Assembly: GCA_021234155.1 (NCBI GenBank)
Contig: JAJEKV010000005.1
Location: forward strand, 16,726,089 to 16,790,088
Direction of reading: 5' to 3'
Source: Isoetes taiwanensis
Taxonomy: Eukaryota > Streptophyta > Lycopodiopsida > Isoetales > Isoetaceae
DNA: 64,000 nucleotides
Shown: positions 24,001 to 61,214 of the stretch, piece by piece
Position numbering within the stretch: position 1 is the first letter of the stretch
Layout of the letters: each line of letters opens with the position of its first letter
Notes under the pieces: model-generated
Databases searched by the model: none
Seen by the model: only the letters and a program-made list of their open reading frames with translations
Told to the model about the DNA's origin: nothing
Made by a program: the position numbers and the translations under genes

Positions 24001-24134
24001 ACATGGAACCAGTTGCACTCAGTAAGAGATGCAGTTTAGTGATTACTGTAGAGGAATGGGGTTGTCTTCAAGGTCACATCTACTTTTGAAACGAGGTGTT
24101 TTCTTAGTCTTCACGTGGGATTTAGTCTTTATGT

Positions 24135-25045
24135 GGGAAATTCTAAAAATGCCCTCGTATTTCTTTATAATTGTCAAAATGCCCCTATATTATTTGTTGA
24201 AATGCCCCTGCATTTCAAATCATCCATTGATGCAGAGCCAGTGTAAGACCAAAAATGGATATGAATTAGGCTAGAATCTCCTCATGGATCTGGCAAGAAC
24301 CTCTTCGTGGATCTGGTAGTTTATATATCCAAGCCCAAGGATTTTTTTAAACTTTGACCCAGCTTCGACACGGCCCAAATTTGGTATTTACTTAAGCCCA
24401 ACACGTGATGGGGTAGGTCCGATAGATTGCTAAGCTGCTTGAACACTACAGACAATTTGGGGTCTTTAGAAAACTTGATGGTTGACAAATTTGTTGGATT
24501 ATGCAAACGGACCTTATTCTCCATCAAGACTGTTGTATACAGGACCATCAAGATGCTTGATTAGATTGTCACAATACTTATCATAGCCAAAAAATTTGCC
24601 TTCTCGAAGGATGGGAGGCTGAGCTGTTAATAGAAGCCAAAGATGGGGATCTAAAACATACTTTGCCCCCCTTTTTTTTGTTTGTAGAAGAGAATGGTAA
24701 TTACCGTGAAGGGTAGTATTAGGAGGCTCATTGGCAGGTAGCTTGTAGACTTTTCCATTCAAAATGAAAGAGGCGCCCAAAATCGACAAATCCAACATCA
24801 AAATTACATGGACAAATTTGGCATCAAAATCACTTTATGTAAAAATAACCAATGTGTTCAATGCAAAAATGCAAGGCTTGAGGTCTGCGACAATGACAAT
24901 TCACAGTCGGTCTTGGGCTTCTTGTTAATCACAATGATTAATAATCATTCTAGTATAAGAAATATAGGCATTTCAACAAATACAAAAATTAGAAGGGCAT
25001 TTTCACAATTGTAAGAAAATATAAAGGCATTTTAAAAACTTTCCC
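24135..25045. repeat. Element-like segment with 75-bp inverted ends
   Basis: A left arm at 24,135-24,208 (GGGAAATTCTAAAAATGCCC and on) is mirrored by a right arm at 24,963-25,045 with moderate divergence. Both contain the phrase TTTGTTGAAATGCCC/T. The interior has two minus-strand frames (24,801-24,514 and 24,551-24,321) of unknown nature, for example GYDKYCDNLIKHLDGP, which may be one broken gene. The arrangement resembles a small DNA transposon or foldback, but I could not identify target-site duplications. Confidence 0.45.
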
Positions 25046-25371
25046 AAGTTTTATTGATTCATACGCAAGTTTTTGATTTCTCTACGCTCTGAGCTTTTTC
25101 ACAATTATGAGATAAATATTGAGGTTAGACCACAATTTGGTGTTATGCTTGTTGACTGCCTTAATAATCTCACCTCTTCAGTTGGCAGTGCAGCTCTTGA
25201 AATATGCTATCCAAGTTAGATATGCAGTATCTTCTCAAGTGAGTCTTTCTAATTGGGTACAAGAAAGTTTGGCATGTTTCTTAAGGCATACATCTGGGCA
25301 ATGCAGGTTATTGACACCAATAACATTTGCATACAAGTTATGCACCGTTGGGGCAGGTGCAAAGGAAGGTA

Positions 25372-25672
25372 AGAGAGTATCGAGTTTTTTACAGTTTGTA
25401 GTTTTCGTTGGTAGGCAAGAGAGTGGCGAGGTTCTACAGGTCGCAGTTTTCATTGGTTGTAGTGGCAAAAATTGAAGTGGGAGTAAAGGAAGACGAGAGA
25501 GTGGCAAGGTTTCCGCAATATGGATGTTTTCAATGGTTGTAATGGCATACGTTGAAGTTGGAGGTTTAACGAGGAGAGAGAGTGGCGAGGTTTTTACAAT
25601 TTGGAAAGGGTGGTAAGGTTTTTACGATTTGGAGTTTTCAATGGTTGTAGTGGCATAAGTTGAAGTTGGATG
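25372..25672. repeat. Diverged tandem repeats of about 75-80 bp
   Basis: Four to five units share AGAGAGTGGCGAGGTT followed by TTTTCAATGGTTGTAGTGGC and a TTGAAGT phrase. Units start near 25,376, 25,419, 25,495, 25,576 and 25,609, with internal deletions. There is no coding evidence. The block recurs at about 38,945-39,240 in the second copy of the duplication. Confidence 0.65.
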
Positions 25673-26798
25673 TTTGTGCATTTCTCTTTGTACTACTGTA
25701 GGTTATCTATTATGAACGCAATTTCGTATGGTATGAATTTCATGCATGTGCAATTCTAAGGTGTATGGGGTATTTTGTCAATTGGCTATTTTTAATTGGC
25801 CTTTAATGAATGGGAGGCTTCATAATGTTCTTTAAATCATCTAGCTAATAGTCTTAACGTATAAGAATTTGCCGTTGCCTAGTAATTAGATCTTAATGAG
25901 ACATTTAGGATGTTTGTCAATTCACCTAGCTGGCCCTCGTAAAGGATAAGAGTATACGGTGGCTATGCAATTGTAAACTAAATGGGGTGTTTAGCCAATA
26001 TTGTTAAAAACTCGTTTTTTATTTGTTCAAATTACCTTTATAAAAATCGTCGCTTTTTTTATAGGATTTTTATGATTTAGTACGACCAAAAAAAAAAAAA
26101 GGCCACGTTCTTTGCACTGCTTTATTGGACAGATTTGCGTTTGCTAAAAGTTACAAGATATAGCATGTCAACAAGTAAATAAGAAGCTTATGCTGCTATT
26201 ATAAGATATTAAGTTCAAGAACAAAGATATCATAGCTGTTTTGCCATGCAACTCTTATGAAAGTTCAAAAAAACATTATTATAGAGGTTAAGAAATATAA
26301 GAATTTCATATACAAGGATAAATAAGTTCAAAAATATCATATATTTGGATTAAGAAAATCACAGTTTAAGGATTAAAGATTTTAAGGATTTCTAAGATTT
26401 AAAAGATTTTTAACATATTTTACATAAAATATGTTTTAAAAGATTTTTTTCCAAATTTTTTTATATCTTCAAGAAATCTTAAAAAATATTTTTTAAACGC
26501 ATGGAGTGTTCAATAAATTGGTGACTCAAAATGTATTTGTAGATATGATTGGTGAGATCCATTTGTTGATAAATATGGTGGTCGCTGCAATATTGAGCTG
26601 TTTGTTGTGGTCATGAGTGTGGGAGAGGAGTGCATTGTGCATTATTGAATTGAATTGAATTGAATTGGTTAGTTATTATAAGCTTAAACGTTTGCAAGGT
26701 ATGGGAGTATGATATGTTGTTTTATCATAGTCCAGACATGAAAGTTGTTTGAGTATTAAGAGGAACTAAGCATTGCATGCAATGTTGAGTTAGCTTCA
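25673..26798. other. AT-rich spacer
   Basis: No gene was found. The stretch includes homopolymer A tracts (about 26,088), an imperfect AT palindrome around 26,400-26,440 (ACATATTTTACATAAAATATGT) and a short TTGAA array at 26,644-26,668. It ends at TTCA (26,795-26,798), which I read as the target-site duplication of the DNA transposon that follows. Confidence 0.4.
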
Positions 26799-27118
26799 GG
26801 GCAAAAGTATGCTGGTGGTATCAAATAAACGCGGTTCAGCACCCAGCACCCTTCATAACTTTTTTTTCCACCCTTCACCAATTATAGTCTAACCTATTTT
26901 ATGCCCGTCACTTCACATAGACCGTACTCGTTCTAATCATAACCTGCTTACCGCCCACCGTAAGTAATGAATGTGGCCCGATGGGTAGCAAATTTTGAAT
27001 TTGTAAATTGCAACCGTCGGCCTGTTCCCCAACTTTTGCTACTCCGGCCAAATAGCCCGCGGAGAAGAAGCTCGAGAATTTCCACATTCACTCTAGTATT
27101 CCAAAATTCAAACGCACT

Positions 27119-29257
27119 ATGGTGAAGAAGGTTGTTAATCCACCGGCTCAGCCAGTAATTCCAACGAATGCCATGCGCAGGGTAAGCAAAATGCACTGCC
27201 TTGCTTCCAGCCCAGAAGGAATGTGCCCCTGAGACCGGACGTAGCTGATTGCCGAACAGAGGAGGACTTTCATGCTTATGCGGGTCTACCAAACGATGGT
27301 GTACATCCTTCTCAATTTCGGACGGATGTCATTTCTGCTGCAGACTATGTATTTCAGGCAGGCAAACCTTGATTGCTCAAGACAACCCTAAACCATCAGC
27401 CAAAAGGTTTTTGTTCAAACACTTAATATATTTGATCCCTGTTTTCTTCCACCATGAATGTGCAAATTTTGTTTGGATAATTCATTCAACTTAGGCTTGA
27501 GCAAAAACTTGTCTGCAGAAAAAGAAGGCAGCCAATGGTTATACTTAGTGAATCTGATGAAGATGACAATGCCACTAAAGGAGTGCCAGCACAACCTCTA
27601 ACATACAAAAGGTGCCTGTTATCCTGTTATATTTCACCTTGTATATTCTCTACAAATTTCAGTTGGTAATTGGAGGATATCCTTGTATGCAGGAGAACAA
27701 GGCAGGTTGTGAATGATGAAATGGAGGATAAAGCACGGAAGGCCACTGCAAGAGTTACTGATAGCCAGGAAACACCAATACATTGGGGGCAGGGAGATAC
27801 TAATACAGATGTATCTGACTATGGCTATCAGCACTCTCCATCATTGGCTAGCAAAGCTAAAGCAGAGTCCAGCAGATCGCAGCAACGTCCAGCACATCTC
27901 AATAGCACTGCCCAGCACAGTCCAGCACAACATGGCAACAGAGTCCAGCAGAGTCAAGCACATCTCGCAGCACAGTCCAGCACAATGCATCACACATCGA
28001 CAGTGGGTGCAAACGTTGAGGGATGGGAACCCAGGCGGAAGTTGATGGTGCTTGACATAAAAGGTGTACTGGCACAGACACAATAGAGGAAAATGGGCCA
28101 AAAAATCTTGCCTCCATCTCAAACGAACCATGTTGTAAAAGAAACTGCAAGTAAGTACCTCATTTGCAGACCAGGGTATCATGAGTTTGTGGAGTGGGCA
28201 TTGCAGAGGTTTGATATTGTGATCTGGAGTGCTTCTCTACTTTGGAATACAAGGGATATGGTAGATGCATTGTTCCCAGATTTGCGGACCAAATTCTTAA
28301 AGGTATATAGTCAAGAGCAGTGCTATGCCCCACCGAAGGTTATGGTGCTTCTGTGGCAGGTGGTGCACCACTGTATCAGGGTGAATGCCTTTGTGAGTCA
28401 GTTTAGGCCGGGTGTGAGCCCTCTCTGACCTTGTTGTGCCCCTCATTGTGAGACTGTGGAGCATTGTCTGGTTTTATGCCCTCACTTGCAGGCTGCTTGG
28501 GATTGGGTCAGGGCTCTGTTTCAGGTGAGATTGACTAGCCAGCAATTGCTGCTTCATGTGTATCCTGGTGCTTGGCCGCTCTTGCGGCGGCAAGCCTTGC
28601 ATCTGTGCGTGGCTTGGTTGGTGTGGCTGATTTGGAAGCGGCGGCTGTTGTGGATCTTTCAAGGGATTCATCAACCTGCAGTCTCTCTGATTCCTCGTCT
28701 CAGGTACAAGCTATTTCAAAGCTTTCTGGTGTTCCTGGGATTAGTAGAGCGGAAGTTCGCCATTTGGCGGGACTTCTTGGGTGTTGTAGATGGTGATGGT
28801 CGGTTTGTACAGCAGTAGAGTTGTAGTTTTTCTGTGAGTTTGTTGTGGAGTGTCGAGGTATCGCTGTCTCTTTGGGGCAGTTCTCCTTCCTCCTCACTTG
28901 ATTTGTAACATTACCCTTCTTTTAATATATTGATGACATAGTTCTTCAAAAAAAAAAAAAGAGCAGTGCTATGCATGCGAGCATCCAACCAGTACAGCAA
29001 AGCAAATTTTTTTCAAGGAGTTGAAGGTTGTACTTGAGAATTTTCTTGAATATCATGGTATGATTTTCTTGGTAGATGACAGCCTACACAAAGGGTTTCT
29101 AAACCCTGCACACACAACCGTTCCTGTTATGCCTTTCAAGGGGCAGGAAGAGGAAGACTTTTTGCAGAAGTTTGTGTGTCCAGCATTGGATTACTTGTCT
29201 TCCCATACAGTTGAAAAAACAATCTCACAGCTAGACATCATTGATGCATGGTTGTAG
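27119..29257 (+). pseudogene. FCP1-type HAD-fold protein gene, interrupted by a LINE
   Basis: An ATG at 27,119 opens MVKKVVNPP..., followed by conserved-looking text (EEDFHAYAGLPNDGVHPSQF) that needs one extra G near 27,181; copy 2 has that G. After an acidic exon (LSESDEDDNATKG, about 27,520-27,612) and an intron, 27,692-28,328 carries a Gln/Ser-rich linker and then an FCP1 homology domain: LMVLDIKGVL, RPGYHEFVEWALQRFDIVIWSAS, DMVDALF. After the LINE it resumes as FFKELKVVLENF and MIFLVDDSLHKGFLNPAHTTV. In this family the nucleophile motif is DxDx(T/V) or, in plant relatives, DLNG. Here it is DIKG, so phosphatase activity is doubtful, while the later DDS acid motif is kept. An in-frame TAG at 28,084 and the LINE make it a pseudogene as read. 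Confidence 0.7.
28329..28960 (+). mobile_element. 5'-truncated LINE insertion with target-site duplication
   Basis: The 14-bp GAGCAGTGCTATGC occurs at 28,315-28,328 and again at 28,961-28,974, directly after a poly(A) of 13. The insert encodes the terminal RT zinc-binding region of a plant LINE: KVMVLLWQVVHHCIRVNAF, a C-x2-C-x(3)-ETVEHCLVLCPHLQAAWDWV block, and a WLVWLIWKRRLLW block. Only the last 0.6 kb of the element is present, as expected from incomplete reverse transcription. It lands in a coding exon of the FCP1-like gene. The frame of that exon resumes correctly after the second duplication, so this insertion is younger than the gene. Confidence 0.9.
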
Positions 29258-29599
29258 AAGGAGATAGTACAGGAGTAGAAGGATTACTGTCTCAACAACT
29301 ATCTTGTCTCGGCCTATTATATCCTCAATGCTCCAGAAGAGGTATAAAGGCAGTTGCTGTGGGCACCATTCCTGAAGACTCTAACCACTCTGAAAACTTC
29401 AATGACTCCTGAAAATACCATTGTACACTAGCCTTTTGTAATATATATGACTTACTTTATGTAATCTTGAGTATTGATTCCAAGTAATGTCTCTAATACA
29501 ACATAAAAATTTAAGATAAAGGTCTTCAAAATTTAAGACAAAGGTCTTCAAAATTTAAGATAAATGATGAAATGATGAAACAACTAGGTCAAACCATTT

Positions 29600-30783
29600 T
29601 CATCCTTCATATGGTAGGCTGTCAAGGATCATCTGATGGGTAGCCCCCTCAAGGAAAAACCTGTTAGTGTCGGGAATTTGATACATCTCAAACTTGATTG
29701 CTGTGACATGATGACTGCATTGATAAGTAAGACCTTTGTTTTGAAGTAGCTCCCAACTACCATCGGGTTGGATAGCATAGTATACACCAGCCAACACATG
29801 TTCATCGACATTAAAAGTCTGACCCCAACTGTCATGTACAATCTTGTCAAGAATATGCCTCAGCTTAACACACTTCACCACATAGAAGTCTGCATTCTCT
29901 TGATTGTCCTCCTCGGCTACAAGTGCAAAGTTGTCACCTTCCTCTATGTTTCCACTAAGCCATTCCCCATCACCTTCAAAAAATGCCTCGTCAATTTCGT
30001 CATCAAGTGTTTCGCCAGTAGACTTCATAGGCTTTAGTGTCACATACTTCCAATTCTTCAACCTGTGCCTATTCACACAACATGATCAGTTTCCCTTCAA
30101 ACAGTTACCACAGAAACAACTTAAACCTCTATGAGCTACCCTTGTGGTCGATTTGGACATGTATGTCCGGGTACTATGTATTTCCTTGGTCCCTTCCACC
30201 CTGGCACAGTCCAGCCAGTCTGTCCTATCAACATCATCCTTTCCAATTAACCAGAAGTACCTGCAACGAGACAACAACAAGTATTGCAGCTCACAGACAG
30301 CATAATGCAACACTACTCATCACATTACAACAGTTCACAGACAGCACTACTCAGCACATTACAACACTACTCAGCACATTACAACAGTTCACAGACAGCA
30401 TTACTCAACAGAATGCAGCAGATGAAAGCATAATACCTTTTGATGTTCCCGTTGTTGGTACCTTCATTCCAACGAGTTGCGAATTCACAGGCATCAGCAG
30501 CACCCCTAAATCTCACCCCATCATACTTGAGCTGCTCTCTAGTGAATGCCCCTTTAAGGACTGCCCCTTGTCCATCGTGCTCTCCCTTACCATGGGCTGT
30601 CCCAAAGAAATTCCACACTATTTCCTTTCCTAGCTCATGGTGATATCTTAATAGGAAATAGAATGGCCGGGCAGATTTGAATTGGCTAGAACAACCATCT
30701 GACCAAACTATATGTCTGGAGCCATGAATTGTGCTTTCTAAGACAGTGCTGCACAAAAAGAGTGTCATGAATCTTGTCATCAC
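29600..30783 (-). pseudogene. Transposase-like protein, C-terminal part (copy 1)
   Basis: Reading down the minus strand from 30,783: VWSDGCSSQFKSARPFYF, then VWNFFGTAHGKGEHDGQGAV, RFRGAADACEFATRW, a donor after AACATCAAAAG at about 30,438, then an exon 30,259-30,144 (YFWLIGKDDVDRTDWLD) and a final exon ending PDTNRFFLEGATHQMILDSL with stop at 29,600-29,602. SDGCxxQFKS and GHGKGxHDGxGAV (here AHGKGEHDG) are the hallmark blocks of an uncharacterised family in lower plants and invertebrates that I take to be transposases. An in-frame TGA interrupts at about 30,093. The upstream half is absent because the duplication ends at 30,816. It ends tail-to-tail with the FCP1-like gene, about 340 bp away. 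Confidence 0.7.
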
Positions 30784-31007
30784 TTAAGTAAAAATGGGTT
30801 TCCTTCAATAGCTTTCTATTGAGAAGCAAGACAAAATAAAACAGAAGCGAAGCGTGCTGGAATAATGGTCATCTATTACTATAAGTACTTTAAAAGGATA
30901 GTTCCTAAATGATGCTGCTGATGGAAGGAAAAGTGCTGCCATGCACATTTATGATCTTTTAAAACGTTAATGTTCTAACAGATTATGTGATTTTATGAAA
31001 ATGCAAT

Positions 31008-34000
31008 TGGTGTTCTTACATCAAGCAATAAAGGCACAAATATGCCAACAAGCAAGGGAGCACCATTAGATTCACTCTTTGGGCGATTCTGCCTCCATGC
31101 ATTATGGTTTGGGAACTGTAATATTACGTGGTAAGTGTAAGCAGTGCCAGTATTTAATAGTTCTTCTTTAAGTTTAATATTTTTGCATTTTCTTCTGTCT
31201 AGCCATTTTGGGTTCTCTGGATGGGGCGTTTGTTAGGAGTGCGTTGGTGCTGGGAAAGAAACACGGCCGTTGCCAAGATATCCAAATAGGAGATCCCTAT
31301 GGATTTTTTAACGCATGCTTAATTTACCAAGTTGCAGCTGGTGGTATGAGGACTTTCTTTAAACCAATGCTGTAAGACTGTTATCTTTAAATTGCTGGTT
31401 GACTGGGATTCAGATTGAGAATTTCAGTTTTATGATTAGTCAATAAAGCCACCCAAAATACCATTGTTGAGCTTCGATATTTATCTTTTTTTGTTATTGC
31501 ACTACCAGCTTGCAGAATGCATCAGCAAAAGTCTCTGTAAAGGCTCACCACCGAACAATCAAAGTGATGACAAGTCTTATGGACATACCTTTGTGGCAGC
31601 AGAATTGACTAGATCGTCTGTATTCCCTGAAAGCCAGGTTGAACAAGATACATGCATAGTGCAGGATTAGAAGAGGATATTTGTGTAGTATGTGGTTGGT
31701 TGCAAAATGACAGAAAACTTACCTGCAATGGTGATGTCTTCTATGAAAAAGATATGAGAATGATGCATGATATTGAGGATGAGAGAACTCTACTTGCAAC
31801 CTTGGAAGATGCCAATGGGTAATGATTTCACATAAGAGAGTCATGTTTTATTTTTACAAGTCTCTATGTGGTCTTCTTTTTGCTCACTTAATGAATATCG
31901 ATTGCTAAGTAACTCTTCCTTGGCGTCCTTTCAATAGCTATCGGTTCTTAAAGTTTTCCCTTTAGGTTTTGTTCAATAATTCAGTTTTAGACCACCTCAG
32001 TTTTGCATTGCCAGTATGTTGGTTTATGTTGTTACCAACAGTGGCATATCATGTATCATATTCCATTCATTTAGGCTGCTTAAATGGTACATGTTGATTT
32101 AGACTAGTGGACTGTATCCAGTTAGACTCATCACTTTGGGAATAAATGTCGGGAGAACGAAATTGATAAAGTAAGCGTAGAGGCTCAGCTGGGCCTGCTG
32201 GGGAAGTGCGATTACTCAAGTCGGACACAGGCTGCATGCACCTCTCACACAGGTATCATTATCATCTGCAAAGTACAGCTTTGAGTAGTCATTCTCATTC
32301 CTGACGTTTAGTTTATTCCCAGTCCTCCTGTTATGACTGAAGATATACTACAAGAGCGACAGAAGCCCTTTCTGTTCCTGACAATTCACCAAGTGTAATA
32401 TCTGGTTGGAATTTCGTTACTTTATTTTTATCCTTCTCTAGGTCATTAATATTCCACATGGGTATCCTAACAGGGTAAAAGGACTCGAATTAGTCTTCAA
32501 GAAGCGATCTTTTGGTATCAGGTGCATGCCTCTAAACTAGGCCTATTTTGATTTGCAGCCAAAAGTGCATACCCGGCAAAAGCAGGGATAAGAAGAAACA
32601 ATAAATTAGATCTGCACTGGGTCACCATCTAGATTTGAGGGATTTATGCCTGTCCCACGTTCCCGTTCCCCATTCTTATGGTAACGGCTGAATGAAAATG
32701 CATCGCCTTTAAAACCCAACGAAGAAGGGCCCCAATGAGAATACAATACATGCAATACAAGTTGCCTGTTTGCTGGAGTAGCATTTTAGCATAACTGTTG
32801 CCATGATCTATAAGCGTACAGCACTTTTGCATAAGCATCACTTTGAAGACTGCTTTTAGTTATGAATTGTAAGCTGGAAAATCTGTATTATGCAGAAGCG
32901 GACATGGGTTTCTTCTTTAGAAAGATGTCTCTTCCTGCTTTGAAGTTCTGACATTTGGTCATGTTTACTCCATAATTTGGACATGGCTGCATTTAAAACT
33001 GCAAATCCTGGTGCCCAGTTTGAAGACTTCATTCAGTGGCATTCTCCGCGTGATTGGATAGAAAACAATTTGCATGAGAAGGACAAAGGTGTGGAAGCTG
33101 CTGGTGATATTGACATGAGAAGCCCTGGAAGACTGTCCCCACAGATGGGAGGAACCTGGAAATACTTGGGAGCAGATCTGGAAGAGTGTAGATCCATTGC
33201 CTGCTTCTGAACAAAAACCAATCTTTGACTATATCGAGGGAGGGAAAAGGTAAGTAAGATTAACCTGCAAAATTGCTATTTATTAATGACTTCATTACAA
33301 GTGTTTCATACGTTCAGGTAATTCATTATTTGGATACACTGAAGCCACATCAGTTGCTTGCTCAGATGATTTGTACATCATTCAGTGCTGCTGCTCATAT
33401 CTTATTCACGGCACCAGGTAGTATTCCACCTATGTCTTCTGAGATAGATGACCTCTATATTCTCATGGGCAGCCTTGTAAATCCTCTTGCCAAAAATAAC
33501 CATATCAGGTGATTATTTAAGTTGGTTTGTTAAAAGATTTCTAAGCGTTTTTTGCTTAAGAAGGATGCATTCTGCAGATGAAGAGATGCTACAACATGCA
33601 CATAGTGGCAGAAAAATCTTTGCAAGTATATGCATATTTTGAAAAAGCTGAGAAGGACCGTAGCTTTAGCTGCCTCACTAAAACAAAAAAATTGTCCAAG
33701 GCACCAAATCGTTTTATTGGCTGCATTACTTGACAGTCCCTTAAAGAAGACAAATAAATCTACAGTTGGAGAAACTTTACGAGGTTTCATATCCTAAAAA
33801 TGTCAGTTCTTGTATCTTTCCTTAACTAATAATGATTAATTGTTCTTTATTTCTAGGAGCCTTATACGGTCTTGGAAACATATAACGAGAGACAAGTTGT
33901 AGCAGACTCTGTTTTGCTCCAGCTGATGACGAACATGTGTGGAAAAGAAAGCTTACGAATGGGGAACTTCTTGAATGGGCATGAACCACGAAGTCGGAAA

Positions 34001-34156
34001 TAGTGTTTTCTTATTGGGATGGTCATTCGGATACTTATAATTAGACCACGAGTGTCCAAGGAGGAATGTAATAAAAGACAAAAATCTCATAGGATGTATA
34101 TTCATGGCACAGCAAATGATTTGCAAATAGCCCTTGCTATTGTTAGCAATGATTAA
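31008..34156 (+). pseudogene. Orphan 3' half of Rab3GAP (copy 2)
   Basis: This duplicates the last ten exons of Rab3GAP without promoter or 5' exons. Frames are broken repeatedly: the conserved VLWIEFVREVRWCW block is scrambled at about 31,205-31,245, the RLSQRM block shifts frame at 33,140, and a stop replaces SGA at about 34,040. In one place this copy is better than copy 1: exon 31,675-31,819 is open for about 48 codons (EEDICVVCGWLQND ... FYEKDMRMMHDIEDE), whereas copy 1 has indels there. Neither copy is error-free. If the duplication is genuine, this is a dead fragment; if not, it is the same gene read twice. Confidence 0.8.
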
Positions 34157-37100
34157 GTATGCTTTGCGCAGTTGTCTCATATCTCATCTTCATCTAAGAT
34201 ATATGCAATCATAAACTGGTAAGAACACGTTTATTTACAGACTAATTATAACCAATGTCCCATAAAGTTCATGAACATAAACAAGATGCTAACGCATCAA
34301 TGGATGGCCTGTTGGAAGACCCATTGATGCCTCTCTACCACGTACCAAGACCAATATAATGCCACTAGTAGATTGCCCACTTTTGGTGCAGTCTATCATG
34401 GACTTGTCTTTGGTGAAACCTTTTTTGTTTGAACATTGTTAACCTATGTTTTTGTATGTATTCTACATTTTGGGTTTTGTATGTATTCTACTTTTTAAAC
34501 TGTTGTACATTACATTGACAACCCCCACCATTTCACATGACATCCTAAACATGTCTTGCCTTGGATTTTTCCACCCAAATCTTGACATTTCAAACAAGAA
34601 GAAGGCAAAAGTGGATATAAGAAGTAATTGATCATCGTTCTGATGTCCTTAAACATCCTGCCATTTTATTATGCATATAATACTTTCCTTGCATGCACAT
34701 GGTGCAACATTTAAAGAGATCAAATGCTTACATTTCTAGATGTGCAAAATAGATCCCACCTTTGAGTTGCAAATTAAGGAGATTTAAAGGAAACCATTTA
34801 AAGGCCTCTTCCACAAAAAGCATAGCACTGCGTGGCAGGGTTTCTCGTAAGGAAGATGAGCTTTGGCCTTTTTCGTTTGGTTTTTCTATGCCTCAAATTT
34901 GAAGTGTGTGTGAGATATGTGGCCACGTTACATGTGGAATATACCAAGATGCTTTTTAATACTAATACACTCATGTTACACTCGTATTGGGGATGAAACT
35001 ACGTAGCATCTATAATATTGGTTAAAAATGCATCAAGGAACTAAAGACGTGCCAATCAAGCGACAATTATCATTTTACAAGGTGACAATGTTATTGTGTT
35101 GTTGCAAAATACTTCATGTGCACATCTCACTTGTTTGTGAAGTGAAGAACTTAGGGTGTGGCAAATCTCGGTTTAATAAAGGGGCTTAGAACTTAGAGGG
35201 TATGGAAAATCTCGGATTTAATAATGAAGGGAGAATCATTTTTATTTCTTCGAGTCAACTCAAATACATATATAATGATGCCACCTAGTGTGTTGACTTA
35301 TTTAATTTAAACCAGGCCCGGTGATAGCACATAACTTAATTTTGCTTCCAAGGGCGCCCAATGGTGTGTTAGCACCTTGGTTTACATGTGATACAATCTA
35401 ATTAACATGAATAGGTATCATAGCTTTTTACATTGAGTATGCATAGCCCCTTAAGCATGTCTGAGGATTGTAAGTAAACATATTAGCACATTTCCATTAG
35501 TAATAACATAGTTAATAAATGGGAAAATACTACGATATTAAGGTCAATGAGAAGGACAAGTTACCTTGACAAATGGTAGTTGCTAGAAGACTTCATAGAA
35601 GTAACATCAATCTTTTTCAACCGATTCATTTATTACGCCACCATAAATCTGGCATAATCATCACGAGCGAGCGGGGATGTCATGACCGGTGAAACACTTT
35701 TCCATTTTGCATGTATACAATGATCAAAACCTTGTCCATAGTAATGCAAGTCCCAAAGCGCCCACCCAAAGCGCCAGAGCACTTATCTCCACCTTTAAAT
35801 CAAACAAATTCGATTATCTAGTATCGTCAAACGGCATTTCATACTTTGATATTTGCATGCATTGGAATAGAGCATGACTTATAAAGTGACTCAATGTCAA
35901 ACTTGATACAACACATAACAACAAAATGGTTACCTCAAACTGATGGGCTCTTCCTAGATGTAAATTACAAAGCAATATGTGAAGTCGCAATAAAACTAAT
36001 TGAGATAGAGAGAATGTAAAGGGATGCTTAGAGTGCCCTCTTGGCAATCATAACTTGCATCCACATCCCATAGAAGGCATTTACTGGAACCGAGTTACAA
36101 ATCATGACCAAGATTCACAACAAAATGTGCAATTATAACTTGTTGAATCATGTAGTGGATCAATCCTTTTCTCGAGAATAAACATACAAAGCTACCTTTA
36201 TGATGGTGATAGTTTCATTGGTGTAGCCACATCAATTCAGTTTGGAGAAATCTCGTATAAAATATAGATACATGATGGCATAACTTGCAAAAACCTCCTC
36301 CATGATCTGCATGTTCTATAGATGAATGTGGAAGTTGGATGGTAGCACACCCAATAAATAAGACATGTATCAATAGTTATAGTGGCTTGGGAAGTAAAAA
36401 TGCAATTAGTCATATCTCTCGAGCAACCATCGGGTGCAAATGCATCAAGATGGAAATATTCACCTCAAATAAATCAAAAAAGAACTCCATTAATATGAGC
36501 TCCTTACTTATTAGCTATTTACTTCCTTGATTATGAATATCCACATCAATACCGGTGACTTTACTATTTGGGAACTATTTAGTCAAGAAGAGCCATCATT
36601 GAATCATTTGCCTAATTCTAATACATAATGATATGCATTCAAAATATGAAATTTGAAGACAAAATTGCAAGCAAAACTCACAGCCATAAATAAAGGATAT
36701 GCCACAATATTCTCAAATTGTGGCCCTCTATTCCATCCCCACACTCCCAAGGATTGCCCTACGGGCAAAAAAAAAAGTTCTTCCACCTGACTTCAACCTA
36801 GAAAACAAACCAAAATATACATCTCATATATTCTACAATACTGAAATTTCCATGGGTATATTCTCTTTGTTCAAGTGGCATCCCATCTTTTTGTCGATTT
36901 TTTTTGGAAAGGGGTTGGATCTTTGTTTTGTTGTGAAAATATGTTCTCATATCATGCGTCGTTTTACACTGCCCAAAACATTGCTTTGACATGCGTTGGT
37001 GATTAGTGACCGGGGATAACAAGTGATTGGAGATAATCCGGAGATAATAGGGAGTGGGAGGTTGATAACAAATGATTGAAGATAACCCAAAGATAATAGA

Positions 37101-40100
37101 GAGTGGGAGGTGTTGGGTCTTAAATCCGGTCCTTGAGAAGTTACATAAGTCTAACTTGTCCTTGGGCCCTTGCAAGCTATACATCTAACCGTCCTGCCCG
37201 GTTGGATCGATGGTGGTTATATGAAGAACCTTTTCGAATATTCCGATTTTATAGAATATTTAGAGATTATTAGCAATAATTACCGACCTCGGGGTTATTT
37301 ACCATAATCCCCTCAGGGAAGGTTAACCTTCTCTTCTCTCTCCTCACACAACGTCAAGGTGGCGGGTGTGTGTTAGGTAGTTTCTTCTATCATTCTAATG
37401 CGAGAATAGCAAAGTGGATCCCAAAAACATGTAGATTAGATTAGGTGAAGCTTGAGTTACCTTGGCGTAGTGGAAGCGTGAAGGGGTGCATTCTTGCGGC
37501 CCCACGGCCTCTGATCGGTTCGCCTCGGCGGCTCCCGGTTTTTGCGGGCGGTGAAACTCCATTCCACATCACGACATGGAACGGTTACACTCGATAAGAA
37601 TGCGGTTTAGTGATTCTTTGTGGGAATGGGGTTGTCTTCAAGGTCACATCTACTTTTGAAGCGAGGTGTTTTCTTAGTCTTCCACGTGGGATTTAGTCTT
37701 TATGTGGGAAATTCTAAAATGCCCTCGTATTTCTTTATAATTGTCAAAATGCCCTATATTATTTGTTGAAATGCCCGCATTTCAAATCATCCATTGATCT
37801 TGAGCGATGTAAGACCAAAAATGGATATGAATTAGGCTAGAATCTCCTCATGGATCTGGCAAGAACCTCTTACCGTGAATCACAGTGGTTTATATATCAA
37901 GCCCAAGTTTTTAAACTTTGACCCGACTTCGACACGGCCCCAAATTTGGTATTTACTTAAGCCCAACACGTGATGGGGTAGGTCCGATAGATTGCTAAAA
38001 GGCTGCTTGAACACTCTACGGAACAATTTGGGGTCTTTAGAAAACTTGATGGTTGACAAATTTGTTGGATTATGCAAAGCGGACCTTATTCTCCATCAAG
38101 GCTGTTGTTGTATCTGGGGACCATCAAGATGCTTGATTAGATTGTCACAATACTTATCATAGCCAAAAATTTGCCTTCTCCCGAGAAGGATGGGAGATTT
38201 GTACGTTAATAGAAGCCAAAGATGGGGATCTAAAACATACTTTGCCCCCCTTTTTTTGTTTGTAGAAGAATGGTAATTAGTGAAGGGTAGTATTAGGAGG
38301 CTCATTGGCGGGTAGCTTGTAGACTTTTCCATTCAAAATGAAAAGAAAGCCAAAATGCGACAAATCCAACATCAAAATTACATGGACAAATTTGGCATCA
38401 AAATCACTTTATGTAAAAATAACCAATGTGTTCAATGCAAAATGCAAGGCTTGAGTGCGACAATGACAATTCCACCCGATGGGTCTTGGGCTTCTTGTTA
38501 ATCCCACAATGATTAATAATCATTCTAGTATAAGAAATATAGGCATTTCAACAAATACAAAAATTAGAAGGGCATTTTCACAATTGTAAAGAAAATATAA
38601 AGGCATTTAAAAACTTTCCCCAAAGTTTTATTGATTCATCATAAGTTTTTTGATTTTTCTACGCTGAGCTTTTCACAATTATGAGATAAATATTGAGGTT
38701 AGACCACAATTTGGTGTTATGCTTGTTGGCCCTTAATAATCTCACCTCTTAGGTTAGCGGTCGCGGCTCTTGAAATATGCTATCCGAGGTTAGATATCAC
38801 GATATCTTCTCAAGTGAGTCTTTCTAATTGGGTACAAGAAAGTTTGGCATGTTTTCTTAAGGCATACATCGGGCAATCACGAGGTTATTGACATAATAAC
38901 ATTTGCATACAAGTTATGCACCGTTGGGGCAGGTGCAAAGGAAGGTAAGAGAGTATCGAGTTTTTTACAGTTTGTAGTTTACGTTGGTAGGCAAGAGAGT
39001 GGCGAGGTTCTACAGGTCGCAGTTTTCATTGGTTGTAGTGGCAAAAATTGAAGTGGGAGTAAAGGGACGAGCGAGTGGCAAAGGTTTCACAATATGGATG
39101 TTTTCAATGGTTGTAATGGCATACGTTGAAGTTGGAGGTTTAACGAGGAGAGAGAGTGGCGAGGTTTTTACAATTTGGAAAGGGTGGTAAGGTTTTTGAT
39201 TTGGAGTTTTCAATGGTTGTAGTGGCATAAGTTGAAGTTGGATGTTTGTGCATTTCTCTTTGTACTACTGTAGGTTATCTATTATGAATAACAATTTCGT
39301 ATGGTATGAATTTCATGCATGTGCAATTCTAAGGTGTATGGGGTATTTTGTCAATTGGCTATTTTAATTGGCCTTTAATGAATGGGAGGCTTCATAATGT
39401 TCTTTAAATCATCTAGCTAATAGTCTTAGCATATAAAATTTGCCCGTTGCCTAGTAATTAGATCTTAATGAGACATTTAGGATGTTTGTCAATTCACCTA
39501 GGCGGCCCCTCGTAAAAAGGATAAGAGTATCACGGTGGCTATGCAATTGTAAACTAAATGGGGTGTTTGTTGCCAATATTGTTAAAAAACTCGTTTTTTA
39601 TTTGTTCAAATTACCTTTATAAAATCGTTAAACTTTTTTTATAGGATTTTTTTATGATTTAAATGCGACAAAAAAAAAAAAAAAGCCACATTCTTTGCCT
39701 TTGCTTTTATTGGACGGATTGCGTTTGCTAAAAGTTACAAGATATAGCATGTCAACAAGTAAATAAATAAGCTTATCTTTGCTATTATAAGATATTAAGT
39801 TCAAGAACAAAGATATCATAAATTTTTTTGCCATGCAACTCTTATGAAAGTTCAAAAAACATTATTATAGAGGTTAAGAAATATAAAATTTCATATACAA
39901 GGATAAATAAGTTCAAAATATCATATATTTGGATTAAGAAAATCACGGTTTAAGGATTAAAGATTTTAAGGATTTCTAAGATTTAAAAGATTTTTAACAT
40001 ATTTTACATAAAATATGTTTTAAAAGATTTTTTCAAATTTTTTTTATATCTTCAAGAAATCTTAAAAATATTTTTTAAGCATGGGTGTTCAATAAATTGG

Positions 40101-40385
40101 TGACTCAAAATGTATTTGTAGATATGATTGGTGAGATCCATTTGTTGATAAATATGGTGGTCATTTGCAATATTGAGCTTTTTGTTGTGGTTATGAGTGT
40201 GTGGGAGAGGAGTGCATTGTGCATTATTGAATTGAATTGAATTGAATTGAATTGGTTAGTTATTATAAAAGCTTAAACGTTTGCAAGGTATGGGAGTATG
40301 ATATGTTGTTTTATCATAGTCCGGACATGAAAGTTGTTTGAGTATTAAGAGGAACTAAGCATTGCATGCAATGTTGAGTTAACCG
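34157..40385. other. Copy-2 intergenic block (duplicate of 20.5-26.8 kb)
   Basis: There is no additional gene. It holds the second versions of the nitrate-reductase-like exon (35,565-35,792), the hairpin (about 37,455-37,580, right arm mostly lost), the inverted-ended segment (about 37,695-38,630) and the 75-80-bp tandem repeats (about 38,945-39,240). CAG/CTG alterations are dense here. It ends at the left end of the DNA transposon, where the TTCA flank of copy 1 reads ACCG. Confidence 0.7.
35565..35792 (-). pseudogene. Nitrate-reductase-like exon remnant, second copy
   Basis: Same fragment as at 21,936-22,164, including the short tandem duplication that breaks the frame (here GCTCGCTCG on the minus strand), with several further small changes. 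The shared duplication shows that the lesion predates the 13.6-kb duplication, or that both copies are one locus. Confidence 0.5.
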
Positions 40386-40692
40386 GGGCAAAAGTATCTT
40401 GGTGGTATCAAATAAGCGGTTCGGCACCCGGCACCCTTCATAACTTTTTTTCCACCCTTCACCAATTATAGTCTAACCTATTTTATGCAGTCACTTCACA
40501 TAGGCCAGTACTCGTTCTAATCATAACACTTCATACAGTAAGTAATGAATGTGGCCCGATGGGTAGCAAATTTTGAATTTGTAAATTAACCCGTCGGCTG
40601 TTCCCCAACTTTTGCTACTCGACCAAATAGCCCGAGGAAGAAGCTCGAGAATTTCCACATTCACTCTAGTATTCCAAAATTCAAAAGCACTA

Positions 40693-42808
40693 TGGTGAAG
40701 AAGGTTGTTAATCCACCCACTCGGCCGATAATTCCAACGAATGCCATCTTGAGGGGTAAGCAAAATGCAACGCCTTGCTTCCGGCCAGAAGGAATGTGCC
40801 CACGAGGCCGGGGCCTAGGCGATTGCCCGAGCAGGAGGACTTTCATGCTTATGCGGGTCTACCAAGCGATGGTGTACATCCTTCTCAATTTCGGACGGAT
40901 GTCATTTTAGCTGCGGGGACTATGTATTTGAGGCGGGCAAACCTTGATTGCTCAAGACAACCCTAAACCATCGGCCAAAAAGGTTTTGTTCAAACACTTA
41001 ATATATTTGATCCACATTTTCTTCCACCATGAATGTGCAAATTTTGTTTGGATAATTCATTCAACTTAAACTTGAGCAAAAACTTGTGCTTGAAAAAAAA
41101 AATGACCAATGGTTATACTTAGTGAATCGATGAAGATGACAATGCCACTAAAGGGAGTGCCGGCTAACCTCTAACATACAAAGGTGCACGGTTATCTGTT
41201 ATATTTCACCTTGTATATTCTCTACAAATTTCGGTTGGTAATTGGAGGATATCCTTGTATGCGAGGGAGAACAAAGGCGGGTTGTGAATGATAAGGAAAT
41301 GGAGGATAAAAGCACGGAAGGCCCTTTGCAAGGATTCTTGATAGCGAAACACCAATACATTGGGGGCGGGGAGATACTATCTCGGATGTGTCGACTATGG
41401 CTATCGGCCTCTCCATCGTTGGCTAACAAAGCTAAAAGCGAGTCCGGCAGATCGCGACAACGTCGGCACATCTCAATACTTGCCCGGCCTGATCCACACA
41501 ACATGGCAGAGTCAGCGGCGAGTCAAGCACATCTCGCGGCACGATCCGGCCACAATGCATCACACATACCGGTGGGTGCAAACGTTGAGGATAGGAACCC
41601 GAGGCGGAAAGTTGATGGTGCTTGACATAAAAGGTGTCTTGCCTGAACACAATAGAGGAAAATGGGCCAAAAATCTTGCCTCCATCTCAAGCGAACCATG
41701 TTGTAAAAGAAAGCGCAAGTAAGTACCTCATTTGCGGACCCGGGTATCATGAGTTTTGTGGAGTGGGCATTCAGAGGTTTGATATTGTGATGCGGGTGCT
41801 TCTCTACTTTGGAATACAAGGGATATGGTAGATGCATTGTTCCCAGTTGCGGACCAAATTCTTAAAGGTATATAGTCAAAGAGCGATTGCTATGCCCTTT
41901 GCCAGAAGGTTAGGGTGCTACGTGGCGGTGGTGCACCTTTGTATCGGGGGTGAATGCCTTTGTGAGTCGGGTTTAAGCGGGGTGTGAGCCCTCTACGCCC
42001 TTGTTGTGCCCCTCATTGTGAGGCTGTGGAGCATTATGCGGTTTATGCCCTCACTTGCGGTACTGCTTGGGATTGGAGTCGGGGCTGTTTTGGTGAGATT
42101 GACTAGCCAACAATTCTTTGCTTCATGTGTATCACAGTGCTTGGCGCTCTTGCGGCAAATATGCATCATCGTGGCTTGGTTGGTGTGTGGCTGATTTGGG
42201 CGGTATTTGTGATCTTTCAAGGGATTCATCAACTGCGATCTCTCAGATTCCTCGTCTCGGTTTACAAGCTATTTCAAAGCTTTTAATGGTGTTCTGCAGG
42301 GATTAGTAGGCGGAAGTTAAGCCATTTGGTGGGACTTCTTGGGTGTTATGTAGATGGTGATGGTGGTTTGTCTGGCCCGTAGGTTGTAGTTTTTACGTGA
42401 GTTTGTTGTGGGTGTCGGTATCGCTGTCTCTTTGGGCGGTTTTCCTTCCTCCTCACTTGATTTGTAACATTACCCTTCTTTTAATATATTGATGACATAG
42501 TTCTTCAAAAAAAAAAAAAAGTGCTATGCATGCGAGCATCCAACCATCAACAAAGCAAATTTTTTTTCAAGGAGTTGAAGGTTGTACTTGAGAATTTTCT
42601 TGAATATCATGGTATGATTTTCTTGGTAGATGGCCTACACAAAGGGTTTCTAAACCACACACACCTTAGTTCTGTTATGCCTTTCAAAGGGCGGGGAAGA
42701 GGAAGACTTTTCGCCGTTTGTGTGTCCGACATTGGATTACTTGTCTTCCCATACAGGTTGAAAAAAAAAACAATCTCACGGCTAGACATCATTGATGCAT
42801 GGTTGTAG
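40693..42808 (+). pseudogene. FCP1-type HAD-fold gene, copy 2
   Basis: Duplicate of the gene at 27,119-29,257 with more frame breaks. LMVLDIKGVL is preserved, as is part of the RPGYHEF region, but the Gln/Ser-rich linker is heavily altered at CAG sites: of 14 CAG counted by eye in copy 1 (27,858-27,980), about three remain. It retains the four-G run at about 40,753 that restores the N-terminal frame missing in copy 1. The DDS motif is damaged (VDGLHKGF). Confidence 0.65.
41896..42520 (+). mobile_element. LINE insertion, copy 2
   Basis: Duplicate of the insertion at 28,329-28,960, at the same site in the FCP1-like exon, ending in a poly(A) of 16. The target duplication is blurred here (GAGCGATTGCTATGC before, GTGCTATGC after), again by changes at CAG. 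Confidence 0.75.
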
Positions 42809-43156
42809 AAGGAGATAGTCTGAGGGAGAAGGATTCTTGTCTCAACAACTATCTTGTCTCGGCCTATTATATCCTCAATGCTCCGAAGAAGGTATAAAAG
42901 GCGATTCTTTGTCAGGCACCATTCACGAAGACTCTAACCACTCACGAAAACTTCAATGACTCCTGAAAATACCATTGTACACTAGCCTTTTGTAATATAT
43001 ATGACTTACTTTATGTAATCTTGAGTATTGATTCAAGTAATGTCTCTAATACAACATAAAAATTTAAGATAAAGGTCTTCAAAATTTAAGACAAAAGGTC
43101 TTCAAAATTTAAGATAAATGATGAAATGATGAAACAACTAGGTCAAACCATTTTTC

Positions 43157-46100
43157 ATCCTTCATATGGTAAATTTGTCAAGGATCATCGATGGGTAGCC
43201 CCCTCAAGGAAAAACACAATAGTGTCGGAATTTGATACATCTCAAACTTGATTCTTTGTGACATGATATGTTGCATTGATAAGTAAGACCTTTGTTTTGA
43301 AGTAGCTCCCAACTACCATCGGGTTGGATAGCATAGTATACACCAGCCAACACATGTTCATCGACATTAAAAAGTCGACCCCAAGCTGTCATGTACAATC
43401 TTGTCAAGAATATGCCTCGACAACACACTTCACCACATAGAAGTCGCATTCTCTTGATTGTCCTCCTGGCTACAAGTGCAAAGTTGTCACCTTCCTCTAT
43501 GTTTCCACTAAGCCATTCCCCATCACCTTCAAAAATGCCTCGTCAATTTAGGTCATCAAGTGTTTTAGCCCGATGGACTTCATAGGCTTTAGTGTCACAT
43601 ACTTCCAATTCTTCAACTTTGTGCCTATTCACACAACATGATCGGTTTCCTTCAAGCGGTTACCACGAAACAACTTAAACCTCTATGAGCTACCCTTGTG
43701 GTCGATTTGGACATGTATGTCGGGTACTATCATATTTCCTTGGTCCCTTCCACCCGGCGCGATCCGGCCCGATCACATCCTATCAACATCATCCTTTCAA
43801 TTAACGAAATTACGCAGCGAGACAACAAACATTGCGCAGCTCACGGGCGACATAATGCAACACTACTCATCACATTACAACGGTTCACGGGCGGCACTAC
43901 TTCGCCACATTACGGCACTACGGCACATTACAGCGGTTCACGAGACAACATTACTCAACGAATCGGCGGATGAAAGCATAATACCTTTTGATGTTCCGTT
44001 GTTGGTACCTTCATTCCAACGAGTTCGCGAATTCCACGGGGCATCGGCGGCACCTAAATCTCACCCCATCATACTTGAGCTTGCTCTCTAGTGAATGCCC
44101 TTTAAGGGCGCCCCTTGTCCATCGTGCTCTCCCTTACCATGGGCTGTCCCAAAGAAATTCCACACTATTTCCTTTCTAGCTCATGGTGATATCTTAATAG
44201 GAAATAGAATGGCGGGCGAGATTTGAATTGGCTAGAACAACCATCGACCAAACTATATGTGGAGCCATGAATTGTGCTTTCTAAGGCAGTCTTTGCACAA
44301 AAGTGTCATGAATCTTGTCATCACTTAAGTAAAAATGGGTTTCCTTCAATAGCTTTCGATCCCGAGCTTTTTGTCTATCCTATCACGTGATGTGGGCGAG
44401 AATTGTTATCAGGTCATTGTGCGGTCTTGGCTCTGAACCTCCTTTGTATTTTTATGCTATAATTCTGCAAAATAAATTCACGAAACAAGCGGTGCTATCT
44501 TGGATATTGTCGGGGGAACTCTCGAATTCGAGGGCACGCCATCTAGCCACAACAATTATGTGGCTAAAATATCTTCAATGTGGAACACAGATAGGAAATG
44601 AAATCCTTCACTGCCGTTCTCTTGTAAGACAATCTAAGAACTGGCTTTGGTTCTTTCTTTTTTTTTCCCCTTGCCAGTTGAGGTCTCGTCTTGTGCTGCA
44701 GTTTCAGACTGTGTCCCACCAGCTACCTTGGATTTCTTACTTTTGTTTCCCTTCTTGGTCGCATTGGATCTTTTCTTTCTGCTGTCACCTTGTACTTCCT
44801 TGGTAACCGATGCTACAACTCCACCCGACTCTTACGTCTCCCTTTGGAATCTATAGCAAGGTCTGTAGCATAAAACAGAAGATTAGTGCAAGTTGAAAGC
44901 ACAAAAGCAGGATTCAGCGGATGACAACACATCTCAGCATGTTGCAGCATGCAATAAAGAGAGTATTACCTTTTCAAACATTTTCCATTCAAGCAAGAAC
45001 TCATGATCCTCTCTTTCTCTTGGATATATAGGAAGACTTTTTATGCCACACCTCTGACATTTCTGCATCAAGCAGTCATGCTTATACCATTCCTCACCCT
45101 CGCTCTTGTTGCAAACCACAGCCCTCTAGAGCTCGCTGCCTAAGTCATACGTATGTTGGCTGGCCAGACACTTCTCACCAGATCCACAGACCTCACAACA
45201 GCACTTGCACTCTTCACCATGAAATCCAGTTTTCGCTGACCTTAAAGCATTCAGGCCTACTCTGGCATACTCCAACTTCATATGGTATATGCAACAACAA
45301 GTTTTCCTTTCTGATACTTTCTTTACATAAATAGGCTTCAACTTCTCGAAAGCCTTTAAGCAAACATGGTGTTCAGGATGTGCCTTTTTGTATTGTTGAA
45401 AAAGCTGCAGCTGAATGGTGGCCTTTGGTTAGAAATATTTATGCAAGAATTGCAAGGAGCTTTTGTATGGAAACTTATACCTGTGTGACCTCCATAAGGT
45501 GCAAGGAATAAGAAATTTGGAAGCCTGAGTCTCTAACAGTGTTCATAACATCCTTCTTGCAAGGAGAGACTCTGCTATTTTGTTTCCAGAATTCTGTAAT
45601 GCTTTGCTTGTAAGCAGGGGTGAGAGAATCGCACCTCAAGCTCCTTTGGAAGCAAAAATGGACCATATCCAAGGACGGCTTCCGATTTTCTTAATGCAGC
45701 AGTTGCAATTGTTGCCCTTTTGGAACCTATCATAAGAAATATTGCACATTATTCAATGAACCTCTCCCAGTCAGCAGCACTTAGCAGATATAAGCACCTT
45801 AAAGCATAAAGAAGCATAGACTTGATTTCGTGCACTCAGCAGATACAAGCACTTAAAAACATAAAGAAACACAGGCATGAAATCAAGAATTAGATGTACC
45901 TAACAGCCCTGCCATAGTGGAATTGCATCTCGATTTTGTGGAAGAAGCCATCACCAGTGTCGAGGTTCTGGCTCTCCAAATATCATGGTTCCTTTGCCTC
46001 TTTGTGGCTACCATTGTCTGTTTCAAGTTGTTGAGCAGCACCCCCGCTGCCTTGCACTCCTTTGGATTTGGCAAAATTCCAGGTTCTGAGATTTCCATTT

Positions 46101-46570
46101 CGTGGTGATGAACCACCCTCTTCATCACATCGGCCTTGAGTTCGAGTGAATGCTTTTTTGGTGAGCTTGTTGAAGTAATCAACTACAAGCTTGGCTATTT
46201 CTTGCCTGCGTCTCATGCTTAGATCTTCCCGTTCAACCGCTGCTTTTCTCATCTTATTCCGTAATCTGTAATCTCTCTTTCTCTCTGCATCCAATTTCTT
46301 GTAAATTGCAGAGGAAACTGGATCTTCACATGATATTTCCTGTGTTGCATTGAGATCCAACAAATTTGGAACAATGTATTGGAAATCATCAGGCCGAAAA
46401 TCTAATGCTAAACGTGTGATTGCCTCTAGGCCGATATCAGGGAGCGCAATGAATTTCTTGATAGAGGGAGAATAAGTGAATTGGAGGGAGAATTTGCGCG
46501 GGCCATGAGATCGAAGTAGTTCTGGGCTCAAATTTGCAACGTACAACCACTCGCGCGAAAATCCAGCCAA
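43157..46570 (-). CDS. Cys-rich transposase-like protein, full-length locus (degenerate)
   Basis: Minus-strand exons run from about 46,570 down. The first (to 45,900) is basic and helical (AERKRDYRLRNKMRKAA...), with a frame change near 46,160. It continues MEISEPGILPNPKECKAA and ends CNSTMAGLLG. The second (about 45,728-45,480) has YKQSITEFWKQNSRVSP and HLMEVTQ. The third (45,422-44,970) has a Cys cluster (CCCIYHMKLEY, ECKCCCEVCG, CLMQKCQRCGIKSLPIYP) interrupted by one TAG at about 45,128. The fourth (about 44,860-44,360) has a Lys-rich stretch and an ARWRALEFE-like block with broken frames. The remainder continues in copy 2 with the SDGC and HGKGEHDG blocks. I could not find an in-frame ATG at the 5' end. 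Its promoter lies within 184 bp of the right transposon end. As read it is not translatable; the lesions may be real or sequence errors. Confidence 0.6.
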
Positions 46571-46758
46571 AATCCCACAATCATTTTCCTAACGGTTCAT
46601 TGCTGAGGTGGACGTGTGAGTACATGAAGGGCGTGGAAAAAATGATGGGCAACCCAAATTAAGAAAAAGCAGGGATGCTTTAAGCGGGCTAAAACCCTGC
46701 TATAAGCATACGTCCGGACACATGCTTTTGATACCCATCAGCATACTTTTGCCCTTCA

Positions 46759-61126: not shown

Positions 61127-61214
61127 CCAAATAGGGTCTTGTACAGTTGCACGGTGTATCTTGACTGAATTTATTTGTACATGTTATACTAGAGCTAGTA
61201 GTTTGCAAAGGGTA

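Follow-up and report, generated by a model that had tools for sequence, protein, structure and literature searches.

Transposons of the Sola group are described as producing 4-bp target-site duplications, encoding a DDD-type transposase, measuring mostly 2-9 kb, being present in a moss and seemingly uncommon in flowering plants (PMC10741241). An element comparable to them in outline is found in Isoetes taiwanensis, in a window of 64,000 nucleotides (the whole stretch of DNA analysed here; assembly GCA_021234155.1, contig JAJEKV010000005.1, positions 16,726,089 to 16,790,088 of the forward strand). Our analysis shows that this element belongs to a numerous family of DNA transposons with two genes, the second of which encodes a protein with a RING finger and an FCP1 domain, is kept by selection and probably serves the element as a helper. 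A first-pass annotation of the window had proposed a transposon with inverted ends, TTCA on both outer flanks, a minus-strand gene for the transposase and a "captured or long-standing" FCP1-like gene on the plus strand.

The genome searched comprised 1.66 Gb in 1110 contigs. With up to 3 mismatches allowed, the 28-base version of the right end of the element gave 997 matches and a related end (GGGTGAAAGTATG...) 880, two sets that may overlap at this threshold. The left-end version of the window element was found 28 times, and the reversed control yielded 0 matches in each of the three cases. Of the exact ends of the GGGTGAAAGTATG kind, the first 100 in the list (from 880 matches) contained 22 facing pairs, 18 of which spanned 7,611-8,004 bp. 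Most complete copies measure about 7.65 kb, and the ends begin with GGGC or GGGT.

4-bp duplications were detected at 18 of the 19 insertions read at both ends, in the form of 18 different tetramers. This applies to all eleven short copies (251 bp in seven cases, 926-935 bp in the other four), which were selected as facing end pairs and carry the same ends as the complete elements, as well as to the loci L007/L027, L010/L029, L012/L030, L015, L032 and L064 and to the window element. Outside this count stand loci with an end or ends not found or not looked for, namely L009, L011, L013, L014/L031 (one end), L062, L063 and L001-L006. An empty site could be read at L064, which sits inside a foreign reading frame. 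Removal of the element and of one TCTT leaves a continuous frame of 455 amino acids, one half of which corresponds to positions 53-91 and the other to positions 91-187 of Pfam DUF7869, and in this one copy the join ends exactly at GGGT/ACCC. Judged by its dispersed inverted ends, the 4-bp duplications and one clean empty site, the element is a cut-and-paste DNA transposon; the further copies that the first-pass annotation had supposed do exist, with the same ends. The miniature derivative is very uniform, seven of the eleven short copies (L016, L019-L022, L025, L026) being exactly 251 bp long.

In intact copies, the minus-strand gene consists of at least four coding pieces, a first, a Cys-rich, a central (DFAENY...SDGC...HGKGEHDG) and a C-terminal exon. 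Its conserved acidic residues fall in DFAEN, SDGC and HGKGEHDG. Seven sequences from four lineages all share D44, D131 and D172, the candidate DDD triad, as well as E47, D96 and E170. On the basis of this anatomy and these residues we regard the protein with high confidence as a putative DDD transposase, possibly with an RNase H fold. This is in line with the role assigned to it by the first-pass annotation; the profile search that the annotation suggested brought up no DDE family. None of the transposase families with Pfam profiles (KDZ, hAT, MULE and others) matched at E values up to 5 or 1. Relatives of the protein were found neither in viral contigs nor in GTDB genomes. Searches with the transposase exons, with the N-terminal domain of the plus-strand gene and with the open reading frames (ORFs) without FCP1 domain at locus L033 (see below) gave matches to unrelated families alone, all of them below the cut-offs (lowest E about 0.007). 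By eye, LDNC..QNKN and GHTHEDVD in the DUF7869 frame of L064 (506-1430, 8851-9777) resemble SDGC..QFKS and HGKGEHDG, and from this motif likeness DUF7869 and the putative transposase may be remotely related.

The plus-strand gene (L007, L015 and others) is longer than the first-pass annotation saw. Its product combines an N-terminal domain for which Pfam has no relative, a likely coiled coil (by eye), a finger of the RING-H2 type, a variable linker and the FCP1 domain; the N-terminal domain, the RING finger and the D-x-N motif described below are additions to the earlier description. The RING finger matches Pfam zf-RING_2 with 20.8 bits (E 4.7e-4), below the cut-off of 27.3, and its C3H2C3 ligands in L007 are C44, C47, C63, H65, H68, C71, C81 and C84. 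The FCP1 domain matches Pfam NIF with an E value of 4.5e-20, the scores for L007, L032 and L064, which represent the lineages A, B and C, being 72.4, 78.2 and 53.2 bits (gathering score 21.8). Of 21 rows, 16 contain VIWSAS and 15 contain LVDDSLHK.

The catalytic motif of FCP1 phosphatases is DxDx(T/V), in which the second aspartate is the usual general acid/base. In the transposon, the first catalytic motif reads D-x-N: 18 of the 20 readable copies have N in place of the second acidic residue, and so do lineages B and C. Because the motif is D-x-N and not D-x-D, catalysis by this domain is doubtful. Its best match in the PDB is UBLCP1 (E 0.002 for lineage A, 2.9e-5 for B and 0.011 for C), a phosphatase of the proteasome of the type acting on the C-terminal domain (CTD) of RNA polymerase II (Pol II). 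The Pol II CTD phosphatase itself also appears weakly in the PDB searches with lineages B and C, at E values of 0.018-0.083. NCBIfam TIGR02245, the UBLCP1-type model, reached 27-35 bits compared to a cut-off of 192.

The two genes are closely linked. The lists of genome matches hold 150 scored matches each, out of 5667, 4710, 2079 and 7258 candidates, the first number referring to the DDD-domain piece with SDGC...HGKGEHDG. A transposase match lies within 8 kb of 63 of the 150 listed FCP1 matches, in convergent orientation in 62 cases, and a control with a 1-Mb shift gave 0; the median start-to-start distance of the pairs among listed matches is 1,648 bp. From the 150 listed RING matches the first 50 were taken in. 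An FCP1 match was found within 6 kb of 27 of these (26 downstream on the same strand), and a transposase match within 10 kb of 21. In lineage B, 13 FCP1 matches pair convergently with transposase matches (by eye, among the matches listed).

A convergent FCP1 gene was present at all 19 transposase-centred loci. These comprise nine long loci, mostly selected for long open frames, eight further loci (seven without a listed FCP1 match nearby, L050 with one), L064, where the gene is whole, and L063, where fragments were found. Conversely, a transposase was present at seven of nine FCP1-centred loci; the nine were drawn from those 30 of the best 60 FCP1 matches that had no transposase match listed. 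In each of L007, L010, L012, L015, L032 and L064 both genes are enclosed by a single pair of ends and a single duplication. These results agree with the co-occurrence expected from the first-pass annotation.

Lineage A (L007) and lineage B (L032) have the whole layout in common, with identities of 52% in the DDD domain, 36% in the N-terminal domain, 40% in the RING finger and 30% in the FCP1 domain. Lineage C (L064) exhibits the same layout together with a transposase that is 60% identical. In a tree of FCP1 domains, the element copies and the FCP1 domains of L033 and L058 stand apart from ten other FCP1 genes with a support of 100/100, a small sample that carries a long-branch warning. The median pairwise ratio of nonsynonymous to synonymous divergence (dN/dS) was 0.22 for the DDD domain (51 pairs), 0.41 for the C-terminal exon of the transposase gene, 0.28 for the RING finger and 0.06 for the N-terminal domain (6 pairs); single pairs exceeded 1 in the C-terminal exon and in the FCP1 domain. 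For the well-separated pair L007 and L015, dN and dS were 0.04 and 0.90 in the N-terminal domain, 0.11 and 0.88 in the RING finger and 0.08 and 0.21 in the FCP1 domain. All these are simple pairwise and non-independent estimates, and some rows include frame-shifted pieces (e.g. the RING finger of L010 and the FCP1 domain of L008 and L014).

The dN/dS values indicate that the second gene is kept by selection, the N-terminal domain and the RING finger more strictly than the FCP1 domain and the linker. The occurrence of the three-domain gene across lineages and the purifying selection on its N-terminal domain and RING finger argue for a long-standing functional gene and against a recent capture. 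Of the two origins that the first-pass annotation had left side by side, the long-standing one is thus favoured.

Two observations touch on the history of these genes. The synonymous divergence of L007 and L015 differs by domain, about 0.2 in the FCP1 domain and about 0.9 in the N-terminal domain and the RING finger, which suggests mosaic elements formed through recombination. An FCP1 domain with the motif D-M-N-G-V-L also occurs in another group of ORFs, at positions 3882-7928 of L033 (G000:C1027:14498500-14508200), with a similar one in L058. This L033-type domain groups with that of the transposon and, by eye, has many occurrences in the genome. The neighbouring ORFs of L033 looked ParB- and methyltransferase-like by eye; no such match was found in Pfam and PHROGs.

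Several results weigh against a mobile element with a selected RING-FCP1 helper. L008/L028 has no matching duplication. The minus-strand protein reaches no family cut-off in Pfam or NCBIfam; a sequence search of the PDB with it gave nothing, and a profile search gave two La-related chains at chance level (E 0.32 and 0.6). All eight RING ligands are kept in 7 of 14 rows, and the RING finger of lineage B lacks one of them. The UBLCP1 and RING scores are weak, and the dullard-like model TIGR02251 outscores TIGR02245 in lineages A and B, all values lying far below the cut-offs. With a median dN/dS of 0.48 (62 pairs) and a maximum of 1.27, the FCP1 domain is less constrained than the DDD domain. 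The linker has a ratio of 0.63, and in the first and the Cys-rich exon of the transposase gene several pairs reach values from about 0.5 up to 1 or beyond. Two of the nine FCP1-centred loci (L037, L040) have no transposase within about 3 kb; for L040, a convergent transposase match is listed about 8.2 kb away.

The last two loci would suit a situation in which the transposase gene is part of one element and the FCP1 gene part of another that inserts near it. The fixed convergent order and spacing of the genes and the six loci with both genes in one pair of ends and one duplication already speak so clearly against this that we give it next to no weight. A segmental duplication with inverted ends arising by chance and no transposon at all would be in line with the tandem duplication in the window (see below), but is already refuted by the many dispersed copies, the 4-bp duplications and the clean empty site. 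It is also very improbable that the element took up its FCP1 gene from the host and carries it as a Pack-type passenger without a role in transposition. Plant transposons often carry gene fragments, and other FCP1 genes (ten sampled) are present in the genome as possible sources. However, a passenger would hardly be expected to appear in the same order of N-terminal domain, RING finger and FCP1 domain beside transposases of 52-60% identity, to be under selection in its N-terminal and RING parts and to group, within the limits of the tree mentioned above, apart from the ten other FCP1 genes.

Two further explanations concern the activity of the second protein. The FCP1 domain could be an active phosphatase of the Pol II tail that raises or redirects host transcription, as suggested by the first-pass annotation. 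The NIF match, the VIWSAS and LVDDSLHK motifs and the Pol II CTD phosphatase among the PDB matches point in this direction; the replacement of the second aspartate by N, found in all three lineages, makes such an activity unlikely. Alternatively, the protein might act on the ubiquitin-proteasome system as a RING ligase with a UBLCP1-like domain, e.g. by stabilising the transposase or by removing a silencer. The RING-H2 ligand pattern of L007 and of half of the rows and UBLCP1 as best PDB match in lineages A, B and C are in favour of this explanation. The generally weak scores, the low TIGR02245 values, exceeded by TIGR02251 in A and B, and the ligand missing in lineage B count against it, leaving it a possibility on the doubtful side.

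For the transposon with a selected RING-FCP1 helper, we thus consider the following course of events. The DDD protein would, with high confidence, excise and insert the element by acting on its ends. The RING-FCP1 protein probably is, with moderate confidence, no passenger but a helper encoded by the element, which would need it to transpose or be expressed successfully. Its FCP1 domain might read or weakly process a phosphorylated nuclear partner such as the Pol II tail or the proteasome, a step held with low confidence; it is favoured over plain CTD dephosphorylation because of the D-x-N motif and of UBLCP1 as the best solved relative. As a guess, the RING finger could recruit ubiquitin transfer and thereby lower silencing or host turnover of the transposase. 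Taken together, we tentatively picture a deeply diverged and apparently recently mobile group of transposons with a dedicated RING-FCP1 protein, which may reshape phosphorylated nuclear machinery against silencing or turnover of the transposase and whose FCP1 module is perhaps also present in a second type of repeat (L033).

The copy in the window is a dead remnant of this transposon that was caught in a later tandem duplication (Table 1). A self-comparison by BLAST revealed a head-to-tail duplication of 13.7 kb (92% over 13,883 aligned columns), whose junction at 30817 cuts the transposon, so that copy 1 stops there without a right end of its own and 46754 is the sole right end in the window. 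The inverted ends reported by the first-pass annotation are real: GGGCAAAAGTATGCTG matches exactly at 26799 (plus strand) and at 46739-46754 (minus strand), and with 2 mismatches at 40386. In a chance test restricted to the window, three end matches with up to 3 mismatches were mildly unusual (reached by 4 of 100 shuffles). Because of the tandem duplication, the left ends at 26799 and 40386 represent one insertion seen twice, and 26799 as a second, separate insertion was rejected. TTCA precedes the left end of copy 1 and follows the right end of copy 2, which fits one insertion split by the duplication. For copy 2 (40386-46754), the claim of TTCA on both outer flanks does not hold, since its left flank has decayed (...AACCG).

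The two convergent genes were recognized correctly by the first-pass annotation, and the peptide from the upstream FCP1 part of copy 1 matches Pfam NIF (E 6.3e-8). The matches of both genes shift frame within the window element, and a RING match is absent from both copies in the tblastn search. In both copies the FCP1 part is interrupted by an insertion, which by eye looks like a 5'-truncated long interspersed nuclear element (LINE) with poly-A; the translation of 28429-28818, LINE-like by eye, had no match in Pfam. Elsewhere in the window, a cluster of direct and inverted repeats (57159-61805, units of 0.65-0.9 kb) contains a repeated ORF (59357-59740, 61101-61805), and within positions 1-1316 a unit of 546 bp occurs twice in direct orientation (1-546 and 771-1316, 96%), with further repeats inside.

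Table 1. Features of the tandem duplication and of the two transposon copies in the window
Feature	Position	Strand	Remarks
Tandem duplication, unit 1	17160..30819	+	contains left 4.0 kb of element; self-BLAST
Tandem duplication, unit 2	30817..44360	+	self-BLAST
TTCA, left 4-bp target-site duplication, copy 1	26795..26798	+	
Left terminal inverted repeat, copy 1, GGGCAAAAGTATGCTGGTGGTATCAAAT	26799..26826	+	
N-terminal domain remnant of second gene, copy 1	27196..27348	+	tblastn with L007 N-terminal domain, 86%
FCP1 part upstream of insertion, copy 1	27685..28329	+	tblastn 69%
Insertion in FCP1 part, copy 1 (limits approximate)	28330..28960	+	poly-A tail, 13-bp duplication AGCAGTGCTATGC; LINE by eye
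FCP1 part downstream of insertion, copy 1	28961..29359	+	tblastn 82%
Transposase-like gene, C-terminal exon, copy 1	29603..30265	-	tblastn 84%
DDD domain, second part (SDGC...HGKGEHDG), cut by duplication junction, copy 1	30436..30817	-	tblastn 86-97%
Left terminal inverted repeat, copy 2, decayed	40386..40413	+	2 mismatches in first 16 bases
N-terminal domain remnant, copy 2	40772..40915	+	tblastn 67%
FCP1 part, copy 2	41325..42960	+	tblastn; same insertion at about 41897-42521; no RING match
Transposase-like gene, C-terminal exon and DDD domain, copy 2	43158..44611	-	tblastn; several frames
Transposase-like gene, Cys-rich exon	44937..45428	-	tblastn 87%
Transposase-like gene, first exon	45937..46588	-	tblastn 81-97%
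Right terminal inverted repeat, GGGCAAAAGTATGCTGATGGGTATCAAA	46727..46754	-	exact
TTCA, right 4-bp target-site duplication	46755..46758	+	

If the reading of a selected helper gene is true, the family would account for many FCP1-like ORFs of the Isoetes genome, ORFs that might otherwise be taken for host phosphatases, and its abundance provides a setting in which the role of a RING-FCP1 helper can be tested. Among the open-access papers listed in our searches, to which Repbase does not belong, we met neither FCP1 or NLI-interacting-factor genes in transposons nor a Sola element that carries a RING-FCP1 gene. The plus-strand protein has the FCP1 (NIF) homology domain in common with UBLCP1 and the FCP1/SCP phosphatases; it differs from them in the D-x-N motif instead of D-x-D-x-(T/V), in the fused RING finger and N-terminal domain and in being encoded by a transposon.

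Compared by description, the Isoetes element and Sola elements are alike in the 4-bp duplications and in size, and the acidic residues of the minus-strand protein would fit the DDD transposase of Sola. The 4-bp duplications and DDD-like residues suggest, by this likeness in description, that the element works like a Sola element. Other two-gene transposons are close to it in organisation. Sola1-1 of Ectocarpus (21.5 kb) has an accessory protein, too, which is ParB-like and accompanied by a DNA methyltransferase and is not a RING-FCP1 protein (PMC12477816). Sola2-Fanzor likewise combines a Sola2-type transposase and a second gene with 4-bp duplications; its second gene, however, is Fanzor1, a TnpB homologue, and its duplications are AT-rich, whereas those of the Isoetes element vary freely (PMC3627910). 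Kolobok elements encode a DDD/E transposase and a lineage-specific helper gene, as is probably the case here, but produce TTAA-specific duplications and have nucleases, a helicase or KolX as helpers (PMC9587614). Membership in Kolobok was rejected, as none of the 18 different duplication tetramers is TTAA.

Two-gene DDD transposons with helpers are already known, and the putative RING-FCP1 helper is the part of the Isoetes element that we did not meet in the open-access literature. The helpers met in the cited papers are nucleases, a helicase, a DNA-binding/DNA-modifying protein and Fanzor; a conserved RING-FCP1 helper, if true, would point to transposons that control transcription or the turnover of proteins in their host.

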